Assembly (NCBI RefSeq): GCF_002494345.1
Contig: NZ_NXNI01000001.1
Span: 2,108,001-2,172,000, forward strand
Length of the DNA stretch: 64,000 nt
Reading direction: 5' to 3'
From: Natrinema ejinorense
GTDB lineage: Archaea > Halobacteriota > Halobacteria > Halobacteriales > Natrialbaceae
The notes beneath the pieces are model-generated. The model ran no database searches, was not told where the DNA came from, and saw nothing but the letters and a program-made list of their open reading frames with translations. The position numbers and the translations under genes are program-made. Shown here one piece after another: positions 8,843 through 49,622 of the stretch. Each line of letters starts with the position of its first letter. The stretch's first letter is position 1.

Positions 8843-8858
8843 TGGTGGCGTGGTCACG

Positions 8859-11720
8859 ATGAGCGCCGAGACGATTGCAGCGGCGATCACGGAGAATCGA
8901 CGGGTCGTTCTCGTCGCGATACTGTTGCTCACGGCCGGACTCGGTGCCGGAGCTACCGCGATCGAGGAAGACACTGCGATGGACGAGTTCCGGACCGAGT
9001 CCGACGAGCGCGAGACACTCGAGTACATCGACGAACACTTCGCGACGCGCGGTGGCGAGACGACGACGGCACAAGTGGTCGTCGAAGCGGACGGGGACAG
9101 CGGGAACGTCCTCGAGCGCGAGTCCCTCGTCTCCGTCCTCGAGTTCCAGCGGGCGCTCCACGACGACGACCGCGTTTCCCGGACGCTGGTCGACGACGAC
9201 CCGATCGTCAGCGTTCCGAGCGCGATCGCGACGACGGCGATCCACGAGGACCGTGCGAGGGAGCTCGAATCGCGGGCCGCCGAGTTGAACGCGACCGAAG
9301 CGAAACTCGCCGGAGCGCTCGAGCGCCTCGAAGCCGATCCGGACGCTGCCATCGAAGCCGAGTTCGAGGCCGTCGACGAACGGACGCCGGTCGAACTCAC
9401 CGACGACCACGCCGACACGTTCGAGACGGCGGCCAAGCGGCTGCGTCGAGCCGAGACGGAGTCCGAGCGCGAGACGGCGTATCGACAGGGAACGCGTGGC
9501 GTCCTCGGCGACGAGTACGATGCGCTCGCGGCGGATCGGGCGGCTCTCGACGACGGCCTCGAGCCGTCGCTCACGGCCCAGATCGATCACGTGGAGTCGA
9601 TGAGCGACGACGAACTCGCGGCGACGATCGAACGGGTACTCGGCGCGGACGAGGGTCGCGACGAACTGTTCGCGCTCATGCCGACCGCGTACGAACCCGG
9701 CGAGCCGACGGCGTCGGGAACGATCGTCGCCGTCGTCCAGGATACCGAGGGCGAGTACGTCGCGGTGGACAGCGCCCCGGCATCGATCGTCACTGGCCAG
9801 CAAGCGATCGCCGAAATCGGCGAGGCGGAACTCGAGGGATCGGCGTCCGTGTTCGGCAACGGTATGACCGCGGACGAGATCGAATCGGCGGCTCCGGACA
9901 GCCTCGCCGTCGTGGGTCCGCTGGCGTTCGCGTTCGTCCTCGTGGTCCTGTCGATCGCTTACCGGGATCCGATCGACGTCGTCGTCGGACTCGTCGGCAT
10001 CGTGCTCGTCCTCGTCTGGACGTTCGGCACGATGGGCTGGCTCGGTATCGATTTCGCCCTCGTATTCGTCCCGGTTCCCGTACTCCTGATCGCGTTGTCG
10101 ATCGACTACGCGATCCACCTCCTCATGCGGTATCGGGAGGAACGAACCGACGGCACGCTCGACGCCGACGCCGGGATGGCTGCCGGCCTCGTCGGCGTCG
10201 GTGTCGCACTCGTCACCGTGACGCTGACCACGGCGGTCGGCTTCCTCTCGAACGTCGTGGGCCCGATCGGTCCGCTTCGGGAGTTCGGCATCGTCTGCGC
10301 TATCGGGATCGTCGCCGCGCTCGCGGTGTTCGGTCTGTTCGTCCCAGCCGTAACCGTCTCGATCGACGACTTCCTCGAGACACGAGGAATCGACCGTCGC
10401 CGATCCGCTCTCGGGACGGGCGACCGGCTCCGTCCAGTACTCGTGGTCGGGAAGCGGATCGCCAATCGGGCACCGCTGGCGCTTCTCGTCGTCGCAGTCG
10501 TCCTCAGTGCGGGTGGGGCCTACGGCGGGACGCAGGTCGACACCAGCTTCGACACGGCCGCGTTCCTGCCCGACGAACCCGAGTGGACCCACGAACTCCC
10601 CGATTCGGTGGCCCCCCGTACGTACACCGCGGCTCCGACGATCGAAACCCTCAACGAGGAGTTCGTCCGTCAGGACAGGCGCGCACAGATACTCGTCGCG
10701 GGTGATATCACCGACTCGGAGACGTTACAACGGGTCGATACCGCCGGACGGGAAGCGGCGACGAGCGATACAGTCGCACGACTCCCGAACGACGCCCCCG
10801 CCATCCGGAGCCCAGTTACCGCGATGGAATCGGTCGCCGCGACGAACGAATCGTTCAACGAGACGTTCCACGATGCGGATACGGACGGCGACGGGGTTCC
10901 CAACTCGAGACTGGCACCCCTTTATGACGAGTTCTTCGCCGCCGATTCCGCGACCGCCGAGACGGTCATCCACCGGACCGACGAGGGCGAGTACGAGGCG
11001 CTTCGACTGATCGTCACGGCCGCCGGCGACGCCTCCAACGGGGCGGTGACGACGGAAACGCGAGCCGCCGCGACGGCTGTCGACGGTGACGGGGTGACTG
11101 CCACCGTCACCGGGCAGGGAACCGTACTGAACTATCAGACGGAACGGGCCATCGTCGAAACGATCGTCACGAGCCTGCTCGCTACGCTCGCCGTCGTCGG
11201 CTGTCTGCTGGTGGTCGTCTCCCGCCGGACGGCAGGATCAGCCACGCTCGGACTCGTCACACTGATTCCCGTCCTCCTGACCCTCTGTTGGGTCCTCGGG
11301 ACGATGTGGCTACTCGAGATCCCCTTCAACTACATCACCGGCATGATCGCGAGTCTCACGATCGGGCTCGGAATCGATTACAGCGTCCACGTGAGCGAAC
11401 GGTACCACCGGGAACTCGAGCGGGGCGGGACGATCGGTGACGCCCTCGAACGGACGGTGACCGGGACTGGCGGTGCGTTGCTTGGAAGCGCGGCAACCAC
11501 GGCCGGCGGGTTCGGCATCCTCGGGTTCGCCTTTCTCCCCTCGCTGCAGTACTTCGGGCTCATCGCGGCGATCTCGATCGGATACGCGCTCGTCGCGAGC
11601 GTGATCATCCTCCCGACGCTCCTCGTCTACTGGACGCGGTTCGCCGCTCCCGATCGGGGGCCGTCGGGACCCGAACGGGCGTCACAGCCCCCCGCGACGT
11701 CGACCGCGGAGGACGACTGA
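8859..11720 (+). CDS. RND/MMPL-superfamily exporter
   Basis: 953 residues with the duplicated RND layout. There is one N-terminal TM helix (~12-32), a large extracytoplasmic loop (~33-340), five TM helices (~345-500), a second N-terminal-type TM (~545), a second loop, and a final five-helix bundle (~770-930). The 12-helix total fits an MMPL/SSD-type exporter driven by ion gradients. Conserved Asp residues in TM4 (LSIDYAIHLLMRY) and TM10 (GLGIDYSVHVSERYHREL) are intact. A calcium-binding-like DTDGDGVPNS loop sits at ~672. The start could be GTG 8850 or ATG 8859; I prefer the ATG. It is divergent from, and by its operators controlled by, the TetR gene. It probably expels lipophilic or toxic compounds. 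Confidence 0.92.
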   Translation: MSAETIAAAITENRRVVLVAILLLTAGLGAGATAIEEDTAMDEFRTESDERETLEYIDEHFATRGGETTTAQVVVEADGDSGNVLERESLVSVLEFQRALHDDDRVSRTLVDDDPIVSVPSAIATTAIHEDRARELESRAAELNATEAKLAGALERLEADPDAAIEAEFEAVDERTPVELTDDHADTFETAAKRLRRAETESERETAYRQGTRGVLGDEYDALAADRAALDDGLEPSLTAQIDHVESMSDDELAATIERVLGADEGRDELFALMPTAYEPGEPTASGTIVAVVQDTEGEYVAVDSAPASIVTGQQAIAEIGEAELEGSASVFGNGMTADEIESAAPDSLAVVGPLAFAFVLVVLSIAYRDPIDVVVGLVGIVLVLVWTFGTMGWLGIDFALVFVPVPVLLIALSIDYAIHLLMRYREERTDGTLDADAGMAAGLVGVGVALVTVTLTTAVGFLSNVVGPIGPLREFGIVCAIGIVAALAVFGLFVPAVTVSIDDFLETRGIDRRRSALGTGDRLRPVLVVGKRIANRAPLALLVVAVVLSAGGAYGGTQVDTSFDTAAFLPDEPEWTHELPDSVAPRTYTAAPTIETLNEEFVRQDRRAQILVAGDITDSETLQRVDTAGREAATSDTVARLPNDAPAIRSPVTAMESVAATNESFNETFHDADTDGDGVPNSRLAPLYDEFFAADSATAETVIHRTDEGEYEALRLIVTAAGDASNGAVTTETRAAATAVDGDGVTATVTGQGTVLNYQTERAIVETIVTSLLATLAVVGCLLVVVSRRTAGSATLGLVTLIPVLLTLCWVLGTMWLLEIPFNYITGMIASLTIGLGIDYSVHVSERYHRELERGGTIGDALERTVTGTGGALLGSAATTAGGFGILGFAFLPSLQYFGLIAAISIGYALVASVIILPTLLVYWTRFAAPDRGPSGPERASQPPATSTAEDD

Positions 11721-13909: not shown

Positions 13910-16900
13910 TCACGGAGCGAGGCCCGATTGCGCGGTACTACCGGCGTCCGCGATCAGTTCCGCAGCGTCGGTCTCTTCACCGTCCTCGATCGTGACGGAC
14001 GCACCATCGTACTCGGCGTCGAGCATCTCGGTCCGCCACAGGTACCCATCGTCTTCGACGATGACCGACTGGACGCCCGAGGCGTCTGGCTCGAACTCGA
14101 ACGTCGCATCGTCACCGGCACCATCGACGACTTCGAATTCGGCCGTGAACGCGTCGACCGGTGTGTCGTCCTGTCGCGGTGGCGCCCAGTTCGGAGCGAT
14201 GACCAGGATCCCCTCGTTCTCGATATCGACGACCTGCCAGTGTGGTCGATCGATATCCTCGAGTTCGAGGGCGTCGGAGTCGTACCGGAGAACGAGCGTG
14301 TACGCACTGATCTTCGTCGTGTTGTCAGTTGCGGACTCGATGTCGGTGTCGACGGTGACGGTCTCGCCGACCGCAGCGCTGTCCTCGTCGACATCCGCGT
14401 CGACGATGACATCGACGTCGCTCTCGTCGTCCGTTTCGGTGAGCGTCACGTCGACGGTGACGGTCGTGTCGGCGTCGACACTCACGGTCTCGCTTGCGTC
14501 TTCGTAGCCGTCGGCGGTGATCTCGAGCGTGTACTCGCCTTCCTCGAGCTCAAGTTCGTAGCTGCCGTCGTCGGCAGTCGTCACCGTCTCATCGTCAGCG
14601 CTGATAGTCGCGTTAGCGATCGGTTCGCCGTCCTCGTCGGTGACGGTCCCCGCGACCGTTCCGACGCTCGGGGTCGGTTCGCTCCCGCCATCGTCCTCCT
14701 TGAGGGAGACGTCGACGGTCACGTTCGAGTTCGCCTCGACCGTAACGTTCTGGGTGGCGTCCTCGTAGCCCTCCGCCGAGACGGTGAGGGCGTACTCACC
14801 GCTCTCGAGTTCGAGTGCATAGCTCCCGTTGTCGTCGGTCGTCGTCTGCTCATCACCGACGCTGACAGTCGCGTTGACGACCGGCTCGCCATCCGTGTCA
14901 GTGACGGTTCCCTCGAGGGTCCCGACAGTCGGCGTCGGGTCCTCGTCCTCGAGTGCCTCGAGCTGATCGGCTGCGCCGTTCAGGTTGGGCTGGATGTCGG
15001 TTTCGACGAGGTCGGCAGCGTCGCGAAGCGACTGGGCTGCCGTCTCGGCGAGTCCGCCCTGTTCTTCGAGGTCATCCGCAACGTCGCGTGCGTCGGCCGG
15101 CGATTGGACTTCCTCGGGGTCGACATCGGCGATGCCGCCCTGGTTGATCACTGCAACGACTCGATCGAAGATGGCCGCTTCGCGGTCGTCAGCATCCGCT
15201 CGAAGGCGATCGGCTTCCGCCGTAGCTTCCGAGACGGTCTCGGCTTCGACCGGGTCGACCTGTTCGACGTTCTCGACATCGGCACCGACGAGTCCAGCCT
15301 TCTGCTGGAGCTTGTCGTTGAACGACGTGATCGCGTCGTTGGCGCTCGCGATTTCGTTGTCGTTGACGCTTTCGACTGTCTCGGCGACTTCCGAACCCTC
15401 GTCCGAGTCGTCCTCGAGAGAGATGTCGACAGTCGCAGTCGAGTTCGCCTCGACTGTAACGTTCGCCGTGGCGTCCTCGTAGCCCTCCGCCGAGACGGTG
15501 AGGGTGTACTCACCGCTCTCGATCTCGAGGGTGTAGGAGCCGTCGTCGGCGGTCGTCGTCTGCTCGTCGCCGACAGCCACGGTTGCGTTGGCGATCGGCT
15601 CACCGTCAGCATCAGTGATGGTCCCGTTGACCGTGCCGACGGTCGGTTCGCTTCCGCCATCTTCCTCGAGGGTGAGGTCGACAGTCGCAGTCGAGTTCGC
15701 CTCGACTGTAACGTTCTGGGTGGCGTCCTCGTAGCCCTCCGCCGAGACGGTGAGGGTGTACTCGCCGCTCTCGATCTCGAGGGTGTAGGAGCCGTCGTCG
15801 GCGGTCGTCGTCTGCTCGTCGCCGACAGTGACCGTCGCGTTGGCGACCGGTGCGCCGTCGGCGTCGGTGACGGTTCCCTCGAGGGTGCCGACAGTCGGCG
15901 TCGGGTCGTCGTCCTCGAGTGCCTCGAGTTGGTCGGCCGCACCGTTCAGGTTGGGCTGGATATCGGTTTCGACGATATCGGCGGCGTCGCGTAGCGACTG
16001 GGCTGCCGTCTCGGCGAGTCCGCCCTGTTCTTCGAGGTCGTCGGCGACGTCACGTGCGTCGGCCGGCGACTGGACTTCCGCAGGGTCGACGTCGGCGATG
16101 CCGCCCTGGTTGATCACCGCGACGACTCGATCGAAGATCGCAGCCTGTCGGTCGTCAGCATCCGCTCGGAGGCGATCGGCTTCCGCCTGAGCCTCCGAGA
16201 CGCTTTCGGCCTCGACCGGATCGACTTCCGAAACGTTCTCCACGTCGGCCCCGACGAGTCCAGCCTTCTGCTGGAGTTCGGCGTTGAACGAGCCGATCGC
16301 GTCGTTCGCGCTCGCGATCTCGTTTTCGTTAACGCTCTCGACCGTTTCGGCGACTTCCGAACCCTCGTCCGAGTCGTCCTCGAGGGAGACATCGACGGTC
16401 ACAGTCGAGTCAGCCTCGACCGTGACGTTTGCCGTAGCGTTCTCGTAACCGTCGGCGGTAATCTCGAGGGTGTACTCTCCTTCCTCGAGTTCGATCGCAT
16501 AGCTCCCGTTGTCGTCGGTCGTCGTCTGCTCGTCGCCGACGGTGACGGTTGCGTTCGCGATCGGTGCGCCGTCCGTATCGGTGACGGTCCCGTTGACCGT
16601 GCCGACGTCCGGGGACGGTTCGCTCCCGTCATCTTCTTCGAGGGAGACGTCGACGGTCACGGTCGAGTTCGCCTCGACCGTAACGTTCTGGGTGGCGTCC
16701 TCGTAGCCCTCCGCCGAGACGGTGAGGGCGTACTCACCGCTCTCGAGTTCGATCGCATAGCTCCCGTTGTCGTCGGTCGTCGTCTGCTCGTCGCCGACGA
16801 CGACAGTCGCGTTGGCGATCGGCTCGCTGTCGGCATCAGTGACCGTTCCGTCAATCGTTCCGACGGCCGGCGTCGGGTCGCCGTCCTCGAGTGCCTCGAG

Positions 16901-19900
16901 CTGATCAGCTGCGCCGTTCAGGTTGGGCTGGATGTCGGTTTCGACGATATCGGCAGCGTCTCGCAGCGACTGGGCTGCCGTCTCGGCGAGTCCGCCCTGT
17001 TCTTCGAGGTCATCCGCAACGTCGCGTGCGTCGGCCGGCGACTGGACTTCCGCAGGGTCGACGTCGGCGATGCCGCCCTGGTTGATCACCGCGACGACTC
17101 GATCGAAGATCGCAGCCTGTCGGTCGTCAGCGTCGGCTCGGAGGCGATCGGCTTCCGCCTGGGCCTCCGAGACGGTCTCGGCCTCGACCGGATCGACTTT
17201 CGTAACGTTCTCGACGTCGGCACCGACGAGTCCAGCTTTCTGCTGGAGCTTATCGTTGAACGAGCCGATCGAATCGTTCGCGCTCGCGATCTCGTTTTCG
17301 TTAACGCTCGCGACGACTTCGGCGACCGACTCCGATCCCTCGTCCGAGTCGTCCTCGAGAGAGACATCGACGGTCTCAGTCGAGTCAGCCTCGACCGTGA
17401 CGTTTGCCGTGGCGTTCTCGTAGCCGTCGGCGGTGATCTCGAGGGTGTAGTCCCCTTCCTCGAGCTCGATCGCATAGCTCCCGTTGTCGTCGGTCGTCGT
17501 CTGCTCGTTGCCGACGGCCACAGTGGCGTTGGCGATCGGCTCGCCATCCGTATCGGTGACGGTTCCTTCGAGGGTCCCGACGCTCGGGGCCGGGTCGTCG
17601 TCTTCGAGTGCCTCGAGCTTGTCGGCTGCGCCGTTCAGGTTGGGCTGGATGTCGGTTTCGACGAGGTCGGCAGCGTCTCGCAGCGACTGGGCTGCCGTCT
17701 CGGCGAGTCCGCCCTGTTCTTCGAGGTCGTCGGCGACGTCACGTGCGTCGGCCGGCGATTGGACTTCCGCAGGGTCGACGTCGGCGATGCCGCCCTGGTT
17801 GATCACTGCAACGACTCGATCGAAGATCGCAGCCTGTCGATCGTCAGCGTCGGCTCGGAGGCGATCGGCTTCCGCCTGGGCCTCCGAGACGGTCTCGGCT
17901 TCGACCGGGTCGACCTGTTCGACGTTCTCGACATCGGCACCGACGAGTCCAGCCTTCTGCTGGAGCTTGTCGTTGAACGAGCCGATCGCGTCGTTCGCAG
18001 CCGTAATTTCGTTGTTGTTAACGCTTTCGACGACTTCCGCAACCGACCCCGGTCCCTCATCCGAGTCGTCCTCGAGGGAGACGTCGACGGTCACGGTCGA
18101 GTCGGCCTCGACCGTGACGTTTGCCGTGGCGTTCTCGTAGCCTGCTGCCGAGACGGTGAGTTCGTACTCACCGCTCTCGAGCTCGAGGGTGTAGGAGCCG
18201 TCGTCGGCGGTCGTCGTCTGCTCGTCGCCGACGGTGACGGTCGCGTTGGCGATCGGCTCGCCATCGGCGTCGGTGACGGTTCCGTCAATCGTTCCGACGG
18301 TCGGCTCGAGTTCCTCGAGCGTCACGTCGACAGTGTTCGTCTCGTCGGCCTCGACTGTCACGACTTCGCTGACGTTCTGGTATCCCTCGGCCGAAATCGT
18401 GACCGTGTGGTTACCGGGCTCGAGTTCGAGTTCGTAGGAGCCGTCGTCGGCAGTCGTCGTCTCCTGACCCTCGGCGGTCACGGTCGCGTTGGCGACCGGC
18501 TCGCCGGCGGCGTCGGTGATGGTCCCCGCAACCGTCCCGACGGGCGGCTCGACGTCTTCCTCGTCGACGGTGATGTCGAGGACAGTCGTCTCACCGGAGA
18601 CGACGGTCACGGTTTCGCTGGTGTCTCCGTACCCCTCAGAACTGACTGCGAGGGTGTACTCGTCCAGTCCCTGTTCGAGGACGTAGCTGCCATCGTCGGC
18701 GCTCGTCGTCTGCTTGTCACCGACGGTGATTGGCACGTCGCCGACCGGCTCGCCGTCGGCGTTGGTGACAGTCCCGTCGACTGTCCCGACGGTTGGCTGG
18801 ATCTCGAACTCGTAGAAGCCGTCGTCGTCGGTCGTCGTCTGCTTGTCGTCGATACTGACGGTCGCGCCGGCGATCGGTTCGCCGTCCTCGTCGGTGACGG
18901 TTCCTTCGACTGTGCCGACAGCCGAGTCGGTATCGTCGGATCGCACCAGCGAGACGTCGACGGTCACAGTCGAGTTAGCTTCGACCGTGACGTTCTCGCT
19001 GGCGTCCTCGTAGCCCGCTGCCGAGACGGTGAGTTCGTACTCACCGCTCTCGAGTTCGAGCGCGTAGGAGCCGTCCTCGGCGGTCGTCGTCTGCTCGTCG
19101 CCGACGGCCACAGTGGCGTTGGCGACCCGCTCGCCATCCGTATCGGTGACGGTTCCCTCGAGGGTGCCGACAGTCGGCGTCGGGTCGTCGTCCTCGAGTG
19201 CCTCGAGCTGGTCGGCCGCACCGTTCAGGTTGGGCTGGATGTCGGTTTCGACGATATCGGCGGCGTCGCGTAGCGACTGGGCTGCCGTCTCGGCGAGTCC
19301 GCCCTGTTCTTCGAGGTCGTCGGCGACGTCACGTGCGTCGGCCGGCGACTGGACCTCCGCAGGGTCGACGTCGGCGATGCCGCCCTGGTTGATCACTGCA
19401 ACGACTCGATCGAAGATGGCCGCTTCGCGGTCGTCAGCATCCGCTCGAAGGCGATCGGCTTCCGCCTGTGCCTCCGAGACGCTCTCGGCCTCGACCGGAT
19501 CGACTTCCGAAACATTCTCGACGTCGGCCCCGACGAGTCCAGCCTTCTGCTGGAGTTCGGCGTTGAACGAGCCGATCGCGTCGTTGGCGCTCGCGATCTC
19601 GTTGTCGTTGACGCTCTCGACGGTCGTGGCGACCTCGTCCGATCCCTCACCCGAGTCGTCTTCGTCGCCCTCGTCCCCGTCGTCGTCCGGGGTCTCGAGG
19701 GTAACGTCGACTGTCGCGGTCGAATCGGCCTCGACCGAGACGTTCTCGCTGGCGTCCTCGTAGCCGTCGGCGGTAATCTCGAGCGTGTACTCGCCCGGCT
19801 CGAGTTCGAGCGCGTAGCTGCCGTCGTCGGCAGTCGTCGTCTGCTCGTCGCCGACGGTGACGGTCGCGTTGGCGACCGGCTCGCTGTCGGCGTCGGTGAC

Positions 19901-20758
19901 GGTCCCTTCGACCGTCCCGACCGCCGGCTCGGGCTCGCTCAGCGTCACGTCGACGGTTACAGTCGAATCGCTTTCGAGGGTGACGTTCTCGGTGGCGTCC
20001 TCGTAGCCGTCGGCGGTGATCTCGAGGGTGTACTCGCCGCCCTCGAGTTCGAGCGCATAGCTCCCGTTGTCGTCGGTCGTCGTCTGCTCGTCGCCGACGG
20101 TCACGGTCGCGCCCGCGATCGGTGCGCCGTCGGCGTCGGTGACGGTCCCTTCGACCGTCCCGACCGCCGACTCGGGCTCCTCGAGTGCCTCGAGCTGGTC
20201 GGCCGCGCTATTCAGGTTGGACTGGATGTCGGTTTCGACGATGTCGGCGGCGTCGCGCAGCGACTGGGCTGCCGTCCCGGCGAGCCCGCCCTGTTCTTCG
20301 AGGTCGTCGGCGACGTCACGTGCGTCGGCCGGCGACTGGACCTCCGCAGGGTCGACATCGGCGATGCCGCCCTGATTGATCACTGCGACGACTCGATCGA
20401 AGATCGCGGCCTGTCGGTCGTCAGCGTCGGTCCGGAGGCGATCGGCTTCCGCCTGTGCCTCCGAGACGCTCTCGGCCTCGACCGGGTCGACCTGTTCGAC
20501 GTTCTCGACGTCGGCACCGACGAGTCCAGCTTTCTGCTGGAGTTCGTCGTTGAACGACGTGATCGCGTCGTTTGTGGTCGCGATCTCGTTGTCGTTGACG
20601 CTCTCGACGACCTGTGTGGGGTCGTCGTTCTGTACTTGAATTCGTTCGGTGGCCGGTACTGCACCGCCACTCATCCCTGCGGCCCCGATGGGGGCAGCGA
20701 CGAGTGATAAAACCACCAGGGCAGCAAGTAGTGTTGCCCGGATCTGTCTGTCTGTCAT
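13910..20758 (-). CDS. Giant secreted repeat protein: six helical modules, fourteen carboxypeptidase-regulatory-like modules, cohesin-like C-terminus
   Basis: 2282 residues from ATG 20758. A Sec signal peptide (TLLAALVVLSLVAAPIGAAG, residues ~9-28) has no lipobox. Module A (~150 residues, helical, with QQKAGLVGADVENV, AIFDRVVAVINQGGIADVDP and SPADARDVADDLEEQGGLA) occurs six times. Module B (~75 residues, VGTxxGTVTDxDGEPIANAT ... SGEYTLTVSAEGYEDA ... VTVDVSL) is a carboxypeptidase-regulatory-like beta sandwich and occurs fourteen times. The order is A-BB-A-BBBBB-A-B-A-BB-A-BB-A-BB. The fourth B is cut to ~43 residues. Residues ~2113-2282 resemble a cohesin fold (GETVTVDTDI ... YTLVLRYDSDALELEDI). 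Module B is rich in N-glycosylation sequons (NAT, NVT, NST). No C-terminal TM or PGF-CTERM is present, so it is probably released or attached through partners. An alternative start is GTG 20767. Confidence 0.9.
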   Translation of the reverse strand: MTDRQIRATLLAALVVLSLVAAPIGAAGMSGGAVPATERIQVQNDDPTQVVESVNDNEIATTNDAITSFNDELQQKAGLVGADVENVEQVDPVEAESVSEAQAEADRLRTDADDRQAAIFDRVVAVINQGGIADVDPAEVQSPADARDVADDLEEQGGLAGTAAQSLRDAADIVETDIQSNLNSAADQLEALEEPESAVGTVEGTVTDADGAPIAGATVTVGDEQTTTDDNGSYALELEGGEYTLEITADGYEDATENVTLESDSTVTVDVTLSEPEPAVGTVEGTVTDADSEPVANATVTVGDEQTTTADDGSYALELEPGEYTLEITADGYEDASENVSVEADSTATVDVTLETPDDDGDEGDEDDSGEGSDEVATTVESVNDNEIASANDAIGSFNAELQQKAGLVGADVENVSEVDPVEAESVSEAQAEADRLRADADDREAAIFDRVVAVINQGGIADVDPAEVQSPADARDVADDLEEQGGLAETAAQSLRDAADIVETDIQPNLNGAADQLEALEDDDPTPTVGTLEGTVTDTDGERVANATVAVGDEQTTTAEDGSYALELESGEYELTVSAAGYEDASENVTVEANSTVTVDVSLVRSDDTDSAVGTVEGTVTDEDGEPIAGATVSIDDKQTTTDDDGFYEFEIQPTVGTVDGTVTNADGEPVGDVPITVGDKQTTSADDGSYVLEQGLDEYTLAVSSEGYGDTSETVTVVSGETTVLDITVDEEDVEPPVGTVAGTITDAAGEPVANATVTAEGQETTTADDGSYELELEPGNHTVTISAEGYQNVSEVVTVEADETNTVDVTLEELEPTVGTIDGTVTDADGEPIANATVTVGDEQTTTADDGSYTLELESGEYELTVSAAGYENATANVTVEADSTVTVDVSLEDDSDEGPGSVAEVVESVNNNEITAANDAIGSFNDKLQQKAGLVGADVENVEQVDPVEAETVSEAQAEADRLRADADDRQAAIFDRVVAVINQGGIADVDPAEVQSPADARDVADDLEEQGGLAETAAQSLRDAADLVETDIQPNLNGAADKLEALEDDDPAPSVGTLEGTVTDTDGEPIANATVAVGNEQTTTDDNGSYAIELEEGDYTLEITADGYENATANVTVEADSTETVDVSLEDDSDEGSESVAEVVASVNENEIASANDSIGSFNDKLQQKAGLVGADVENVTKVDPVEAETVSEAQAEADRLRADADDRQAAIFDRVVAVINQGGIADVDPAEVQSPADARDVADDLEEQGGLAETAAQSLRDAADIVETDIQPNLNGAADQLEALEDGDPTPAVGTIDGTVTDADSEPIANATVVVGDEQTTTDDNGSYAIELESGEYALTVSAEGYEDATQNVTVEANSTVTVDVSLEEDDGSEPSPDVGTVNGTVTDTDGAPIANATVTVGDEQTTTDDNGSYAIELEEGEYTLEITADGYENATANVTVEADSTVTVDVSLEDDSDEGSEVAETVESVNENEIASANDAIGSFNAELQQKAGLVGADVENVSEVDPVEAESVSEAQAEADRLRADADDRQAAIFDRVVAVINQGGIADVDPAEVQSPADARDVADDLEEQGGLAETAAQSLRDAADIVETDIQPNLNGAADQLEALEDDDPTPTVGTLEGTVTDADGAPVANATVTVGDEQTTTADDGSYTLEIESGEYTLTVSAEGYEDATQNVTVEANSTATVDLTLEEDGGSEPTVGTVNGTITDADGEPIANATVAVGDEQTTTADDGSYTLEIESGEYTLTVSAEGYEDATANVTVEANSTATVDISLEDDSDEGSEVAETVESVNDNEIASANDAITSFNDKLQQKAGLVGADVENVEQVDPVEAETVSEATAEADRLRADADDREAAIFDRVVAVINQGGIADVDPEEVQSPADARDVADDLEEQGGLAETAAQSLRDAADLVETDIQPNLNGAADQLEALEDEDPTPTVGTLEGTVTDTDGEPVVNATVSVGDEQTTTDDNGSYALELESGEYALTVSAEGYEDATQNVTVEANSNVTVDVSLKEDDGGSEPTPSVGTVAGTVTDEDGEPIANATISADDETVTTADDGSYELELEEGEYTLEITADGYEDASETVSVDADTTVTVDVTLTETDDESDVDVIVDADVDEDSAAVGETVTVDTDIESATDNTTKISAYTLVLRYDSDALELEDIDRPHWQVVDIENEGILVIAPNWAPPRQDDTPVDAFTAEFEVVDGAGDDATFEFEPDASGVQSVIVEDDGYLWRTEMLDAEYDGASVTIEDGEETDAAELIADAGSTAQSGLAP
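14940..20612 (-). repeat. Six in-gene copies of the ~435-bp helical-module repeat
   Basis: The module A copies lie roughly at 20181-20612, 19194-19629, 17604-18034, 16887-17314, 15915-16345 and 14946-15383, read right to left in the protein. The stretch actcgatcgaagat recurs at 20391, 19402, 17813, 17097, 16123 and 15159. Copies differ mostly at synonymous positions (for instance gtgatcactgc/gtgatcaccgc variants). That points to recent duplication or gene conversion within the ORF. Boundaries are approximate. Confidence 0.85.
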
Positions 20759-20943
20759 GGCTATCACGCCGTCTGGGGAGTCAACGACATCCTGATTGTA
20801 TTTTTGCCCGTATATGGCTGTAACTTTTAATTAGGAACGGGTTACAGGGAGTGAATCATCTCCGCGAAGGAAGCGATGCCGGCTCTAGAGGGGCTTCGAT
20901 CGAAAGCCACCGAAAACCGGATGCTGAAGCGTCTACGTACAAC

Positions 20944-48839: not shown

Positions 48840-49622
48840 ATGACTGTCGTTCTCGCCGGCGTCGGTGCGGACAGTACGAACCTCGGTGCGCTGGCGCCGC
48901 TGTACGACGACGGCCGCTTCGAGTACGTTCCGATCCCGGAGAAAACACGTGAGACGACCGAATCCGAAACACTCGGCTCGTGGGAGCTCCGAGCCGACGA
49001 CGGCACCGCAGCGGATCTGACGACCCGTATCACCCCCCAGCCGGTCCACGAGGGGACCGAAACCGTGGCCGGCGACGAACTCGCGTCCTGGCCGCTCCAC
49101 CACGATCCGAACTTCGAGGCGCTGACGTACGGCGAACACCGAACCAGCGGCTACGTCTCGCGGCTCCGTGCGCTCGAGTCGGGCGATGTCGTCGGCTTCT
49201 ACGCCGGCCTGCGACGGCCCAGCGGGGACCGCGCCCACAGGTACCTGATCGGTTACTTCACCGTCGACGAGGTGCTCGTCGTCGGCCCCGACACACCGCC
49301 CGGCGAACGGCAGGCCATCCTCGCTGCCCATCCGGACAACGCACACGCGAAACGCGCCCAGAACGGTGACCTCTACCTCGAGAAACCGGTCGTGATCGTC
49401 GACGGCCGCGAGCCGGGTGGGCTCTTCGAACGGGAGCCGATTCGTCTCAGCGAGTACTACGTCAGGGACGGAAACGAACGCCCGCAGTATTACTTGCGCG
49501 AGGAGATTGCGGACGAGTGGAACGTACGGGCCGGCGGCGCGAACATGATGTTCAAGCCGGCCTACCGCTGTGCGCTCTCGGGCGCTGCGTTCCGGGAGCT
49601 GGTCGGGACTCCCGACGCGTGA
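48840..49622 (+). CDS. Nmad3-like (nucleotide-modification-associated) protein
   Basis: 260 residues. The N-terminus VVLAGVGADSTNLGALAPLY (~3-22) and the FEYVPIPEKT segment (~27-36) resemble the start of Nmad3 domains, named after association with DNA-base-modification genes. The rest has LASWPLHHDPNFEALTYGEH (~81-100), RYLIGYFTVDEVLVVGPD (~134-151), and AKRAQNGDLYLEKPVVIVDG (~169-188). I recognise this from memory at moderate confidence and no catalytic residues can be pinned. The gene stands alone among unrelated genes, with no modification enzyme in the window. Confidence 0.55.
   Translation: MTVVLAGVGADSTNLGALAPLYDDGRFEYVPIPEKTRETTESETLGSWELRADDGTAADLTTRITPQPVHEGTETVAGDELASWPLHHDPNFEALTYGEHRTSGYVSRLRALESGDVVGFYAGLRRPSGDRAHRYLIGYFTVDEVLVVGPDTPPGERQAILAAHPDNAHAKRAQNGDLYLEKPVVIVDGREPGGLFEREPIRLSEYYVRDGNERPQYYLREEIADEWNVRAGGANMMFKPAYRCALSGAAFRELVGTPDA

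Follow-up and report, generated by a model that had tools for sequence, protein, structure and literature searches.

A 2282-residue protein built from alternating copies of two modules, a helical domain (A) and a beta-sandwich domain (B), is encoded in the window, the stretch of 64,000 nucleotides of Natrinema ejinorense DNA that was analysed. Our analysis suggests that it is, on balance, probably an extended, extracellular, Sec-secreted A-B stalk which holds out a cohesin domain and whose length is set by recombination. Repetitive secreted stalks are a known kind of protein, while domain A, which is absent from the family libraries searched, is the new part.

The open frame lies on the minus strand, from 20767 to 13910, and comprises 2285 codons from a GTG, or 2282 from an in-frame ATG at 20758, in agreement with the coordinates and length given in the original prediction made from the letters of the window, which did not specify the strand. 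An HMM scan of the protein yielded the order ABB-ABBBBB-AB-ABB-ABB-ABB (6 A and 14 B), exactly reproducing the mosaic A-BB-A-BBBBB-A-B-A-BB-A-BB-A-BB proposed there. The features, in window positions, are:

13910..20758, minus strand, whole gene, 2282 aa from the ATG (GTG frame start at 20767), with orthologues in six other genomes
20669..20758, minus strand, Sec-type signal peptide, no twin arginine, TIGR04207 below cut-off
20180..20611, minus strand, A module 1 (144 aa)
19691..20164, minus strand, B modules 1-2, CarboxypepD_reg profile match
19193..19624, minus strand, A module 2
18065..19171, minus strand, B modules 3-7, the second one truncated, CarboxypepD_reg match
17603..18034, minus strand, A module 3
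17348..17581, minus strand, B module 8, CarboxypepD_reg match
16886..17317, minus strand, A module 4
16373..16864, minus strand, B modules 9-10, CarboxypepD_reg match
15914..16345, minus strand, A module 5
15407..15892, minus strand, B modules 11-12, CarboxypepD_reg match
14948..15379, minus strand, A module 6, fold also predicted
14435..14926, minus strand, B modules 13-14, CarboxypepD_reg match, included in the structure model
13982..14416, minus strand, probable cohesin domain, Pfam PF00963 and Foldseek matches to cohesins

The N-terminal signal peptide is of the Sec type, as had been predicted, and hydropathy analysis reveals no other strongly hydrophobic stretch in the protein. The match to the haloarchaeal surface-glycoprotein signal TIGR04207 (14.3 bits) is below the cut-off of 24.6. 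A C-terminal anchor is not recognisable in the window's protein (C-terminal hydropathy maximum 0.27), and no PGF-CTERM match is among those listed in the profile scans, so that it does not classify as an archaeosortase substrate. The protein may therefore be released instead of being bound to the surface. Its identity as a haloarchaeal S-layer glycoprotein was rejected because of the sub-threshold TIGR04207 match and the absent C-terminal anchor.

The six A modules have 130-142 of their 144 residues in common (90-99% identical; 88-96% in DNA), and the differences among the copies are mostly located at third codon positions. The dN/dS between the copies (means 0.10-0.19) indicates that the A sequence is constrained; residues invariant across 23 A domains include N6, N14, A46, E55, L59, I78, N79, A97, R98 and A122. 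The fold of A is confidently predicted (pLDDT 94.9, pTM 0.87) to be a compact helical bundle of three long helices and one short helix (residues 2-31, 49-80, 94-107 and 110-141), in line with the six near-identical helical modules noticed earlier. No Pfam family matches A above any curated cut-off, the NCBIfam scan assigned nothing to the A region, and the best match in PHROGs (E 0.0022) covers 33 residues only and belongs to a family without function. Searches of the PDB gave a best E of 0.29 with the sequence and 0.12 with the model, no solved structure being found at E < 0.001. Domain A is thus new to the family libraries searched (Pfam, NCBIfam, PHROGs), a point that goes beyond the original prediction.

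The B modules, described in the original prediction as carboxypeptidase-regulatory-like, belong to CarboxypepD_reg (PF13620), which matches 14 stretches with 797.6 bits against a cut-off of 32.3. One of them, the second of B modules 3-7, is truncated to about 41 aa. B is a transthyretin-like (TTR-like) beta sandwich, a fold which is also supported by prediction, and the modelled C-terminal end of the protein matches solved stalk, pilin and S-layer proteins that use TTR-type domains (Foldseek). Matches of PEGA, Dioxygenase_C and other Pfam families to the B modules were taken as cross-matches within the same fold class, and NCBIfam S-layer protein matches, also located on B, are below cut-off. 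N-glycosylation sequons number 38 in B against 9.6 in shuffled sequences, a count in which the B copies are related and hence not independent, and 4 in A against 3.6.

The last 176 residues match the Cohesin family PF00963 with 27.6 bits (cut-off 24.1), over profile positions 3-50 only. Among the orthologues, the same family scores 26.5 bits in G010 and 19.3, below cut-off, in G019, and has no match in G016 and G018. A chain model of A6-B13-B14-cohesin is of low overall confidence (pTM 0.35), with moderate confidence in the cohesin region, and matches several cohesins in Foldseek (E about 1e-7, TM-score 0.62-0.71 by target length). Pfam and the fold comparison together support the C-terminal domain being a cohesin, as had been suspected. 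The orthologues in G003 and G006 are without cohesin, which indicates that this domain is not essential to the stalk. In these two genomes (L024:7881-8735, L025:9407-10234), a short hydrophobic helix ends the protein after a Pro/Asp/Glu-rich or Pro/Gly-rich linker. Membership in the cellulosomal scaffoldins, which requires several cohesins and a CBM, was rejected since the chain contains a single cohesin and no CBM.

Matches to the A profile are limited to the family (19 of the 391 genomes of the class). A contig search with the A alignment found one halobacterial MAG contig, and the same search with a single A module as query found no relative. Plasmids, phages and viral contigs contain no match to the A profile, which leaves a viral or plasmid origin of the A-B gene without support. 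The single-A homologues of other genera are Tat lipoproteins consisting of A alone (L040, L041, L043), A-B proteins with a PGF-CTERM surface anchor (L042 in G043) or another C-terminal anchor (L047), and A-B proteins with several membrane helices (L044, L045); a further homologue with a partial A has the order A-B-cohesin-B-B (L039). The anchored A-B relatives and the A-only Tat lipoproteins are all extracytoplasmic. The single-A homologues suggest that A-B is the ancestral unit, which became repeated in this genus. Some genomes without the A-B gene encode secreted proteins of the Tat type in which three repeats weakly resemble A (L088:8202-9782, L092:7505-9088).

Within the genus, the A-module gene is present in 7 of 29 genomes, and for six of the seven holders it is shown to lie at one syntenic locus. 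The LutC-like and LUD/ferredoxin genes that adjoin the gene in the window also adjoin the orthologues in G003, G006, G016, G018 and G019, and the conspecific G010 has its immediate neighbours in common with the window at 93.5-94.7% identity. In G019, the A-B gene is located between alpha/beta-hydrolase and NmrA-like genes; in G002 and G022 these two genes lie ~430 bases apart with no A-B gene, forming an empty site. On the neighbour-gene tree, presence of the gene requires at least five changes, and well supported branches force two of these; rows G012 and G025 of this tree are mis-oriented, and only the grouping of the other rows was used. An MMPL-family gene (window 8850-11720) separates the hydrolase gene from the LutC-like gene in G000 (the window's genome), G010 and G012 and is absent in several relatives, and a gene with a nucleotide-modification-associated domain (Nmad3) is present at window 48840-49622.

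Comparison of related genomes reveals that the number of modules ranges from 2 to 6 A and from 2 to 14 B, with proteins of 582 to 2282 aa:

G000: ABB-AB5-AB-ABB-ABB-ABB, 6 A and 14 B, 2282 aa
G010 (same species as G000): AB-AB-AB5-AB-ABB-ABB, 6 A and 12 B
G016: AB-AB-AB3-ABB, 4 A and 7 B
G018: AB-AB9-ABB, 3 A and 12 B
G019: AB-AB-AB9-ABB, 4 A and 13 B
G003 and G006: AB-AB, 2 A and 2 B each, shortest form 582 aa

Whole A-B units differ between G000 and G010, and exactly one such unit separates the sister species G018 and G019, which adjoin each other on the tree. The A copies group by genome or species and not by position, except that in G016, G018 and G019 the last A is divergent. When a Sawyer-type test was applied to the 12 A copies found in G000 and G010 together, the summed fragments scored 26723, whereas permutations scored 19066 +/- 661 and none of the 300 was as high. 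This clustering by genome, together with the mosaic tracts, points to homogenisation of A by recombination. For B, similarity is only slightly higher within the genome (0.69 within G000 against 0.64 to G018). These results indicate that modules are gained or lost as whole units and that A is homogenised, B not, which supports the proposal of ongoing length variation by recombination. The counter-case named with that proposal, orthologues of single copy number and no variation, does not hold: single-copy forms occur as homologues in other genera, and the orthologues within the genus vary in number. In Haloferax volcanii, a polyploid haloarchaeon, chromosome copies undergo efficient intermolecular gene conversion (PMC11276520), and by analogy the same mechanism might plausibly act on the A-B gene.

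According to the reading that we favour, the protein would be exported through Sec and would form a long, mostly rigid stalk of alternating A and B beads with the cohesin at its far end. Such a stalk would most likely place a partner bound to the cohesin, or its own surface, beyond the S-layer of the cell. Given the cohesin, the assembly with partner proteins that was originally proposed is plausible, but G010 retains this domain with no dockerin detected and G003 and G006 are without it. Unequal recombination between the A-B repeats would set its length, while gene conversion and purifying selection would keep the A copies alike. An extracellular stalk is suggested by a signal peptide in a protein otherwise free of strongly hydrophobic stretches, by the anchored and lipoprotein relatives, by the TTR-type B modules and by the cohesin. 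These features and the predicted domains support the extracellular, extended protein of the original prediction, although we infer the extended shape, as well as location, partner binding and a selective value of length, and the chain model, at a pTM of 0.35, is too uncertain to establish a straight form. Typical domain dimensions would give a rough length of ~80 nm for the window's form and under 20 nm for that of G003, a range that could be relevant to whether the protein extends beyond the S-layer.

A rather unlikely alternative is that the A-B stalk is the scaffold of a cellulosome-like anchor, in which the cohesin captures dockerin-bearing GH5 cellulases and a rhamnogalacturonan lyase. 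Seven dockerin matches, with C-terminal dockerins, are indeed present in a single cluster of the window's genome (G000 C1:3195160-3210333; L084, L085), made up mostly of such Tat-secreted GH5 enzymes along with the lyase and an fn3/PKD protein, and comparable clusters of GH5 and dockerin genes have been reported from haloarchaea that degrade cellulose and mannan (PMC10963439). Four or more dockerins were found in 4 of the 5 genomes with the cohesin form, as against 1 of the 24 others. However, the neighbour-gene tree reduces this to only three independent pairs, too few for a test of the association. Moreover, the cluster is absent from G010, which has kept the cohesin form with no dockerin detected in its genome, and a dockerin link as the sole function of the A-B protein was rejected for this reason. 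The chain also carries one cohesin, unlike a multi-cohesin scaffoldin, and a second, separate cohesin protein (G000 C1:1110246-1110602; L086:5968-6966) could be the anchor instead. It has a hydrophobic C-terminal segment in G000, and each of the 29 genomes of the genus yields a cohesin match of similar size.

It is also unlikely that the protein acts mainly as an adhesin or biofilm-matrix protein, in which A (or B) binds surfaces, cells or itself, copy number tunes avidity and the cohesin is secondary. Repetitive stalks of variable copy number are typical of adhesins, and the strong homogenisation of A but not B suggests that the sequence of A matters more; yet no known adhesive domain was found in the protein, and binding by A is putative. 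Association of A with A would be in keeping with the spacing of A-domain genes in other genera: in five genomes (L091, L040, L043, L090, L039) they are a few kb apart, and often a lipoprotein gene adjoins one for a secreted protein with one or two A. We consider it quite unlikely that A founds a new haloarchaeal family of extracytoplasmic association domains, whereby A would bind A, lipoprotein A and multi-A stalks would form a variable-length coat or intercellular link, and gene conversion would keep A compatible while the B spacers drift. The patchiness of the gene, with its empty sites, and the coexistence of the 582-aa and 2282-aa orthologues could reflect neutral expansion of the repeats in a protein that is released or displayed on the surface, the module number drifting without consequence; but the open frame is kept in every orthologue and the A copies are constrained, which makes this very improbable. 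Short-read assemblies are error-prone at long near-identical repeats, and the exact copy number in G000 could still be off by one unit. However, the copies differ at 4-12% of bases, the G000 genome is in three contigs, and the same modules recur independently, with other copy numbers, in orthologues of six other genomes; the repeats are thus neither due to chance nor to a collapsed or duplicated assembly, and an artefact of assembly has a negligible probability.

The favoured Sec-secreted stalk resembles the archaeal adhesin-like proteins of Methanobrevibacter and Methanosphaera, which are thought to extend from the cell and a few of which carry a carboxypeptidase regulatory-like domain (PMC11532034), in being a long secreted protein with a variable number of beta-sandwich repeats. 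In contrast to these proteins, its beta repeats are interspersed with a helical domain that the family libraries searched do not contain, it has no recognisable membrane anchor and it ends in a probable cohesin. The B modules are of the same CarboxypepD_reg/TTR-like fold class as SlaB of Sulfolobus and Gram-positive pilins, but here the link is Pfam membership by sequence, and an S-layer or pilus assembly motif was not found. Through the A-B-PGF-CTERM homologue of G043, it is comparable to haloarchaeal PGF-CTERM surface proteins, whose anchor motif is missing from the window's protein, either through loss or because it was never there. Cohesin and dockerin proteins of a non-cellulosomal kind are known from ANME archaea and Archaeoglobus (PMC9012536), and as there, an extracellular protein carries a cohesin in an archaeon whose genome also encodes dockerin proteins. 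However, ANME scaffoldin-like proteins contain up to five cohesins (PMC9012536), whereas the single cohesin of the window's protein is carried on an A-B stalk of variable length.

Within a single genus, the orthologues at this locus form a natural series, with 2 to 6 copies of A and 2 to 14 of B, in which genomes of one species and of sister species differ by whole units. They offer an archaeal testbed for the generation of module number, for the selective homogenisation of repeats and for the relation of stalk length to cell-surface behaviour, and the cohesin end bears on the role of cohesins in archaea that lack scaffoldins.
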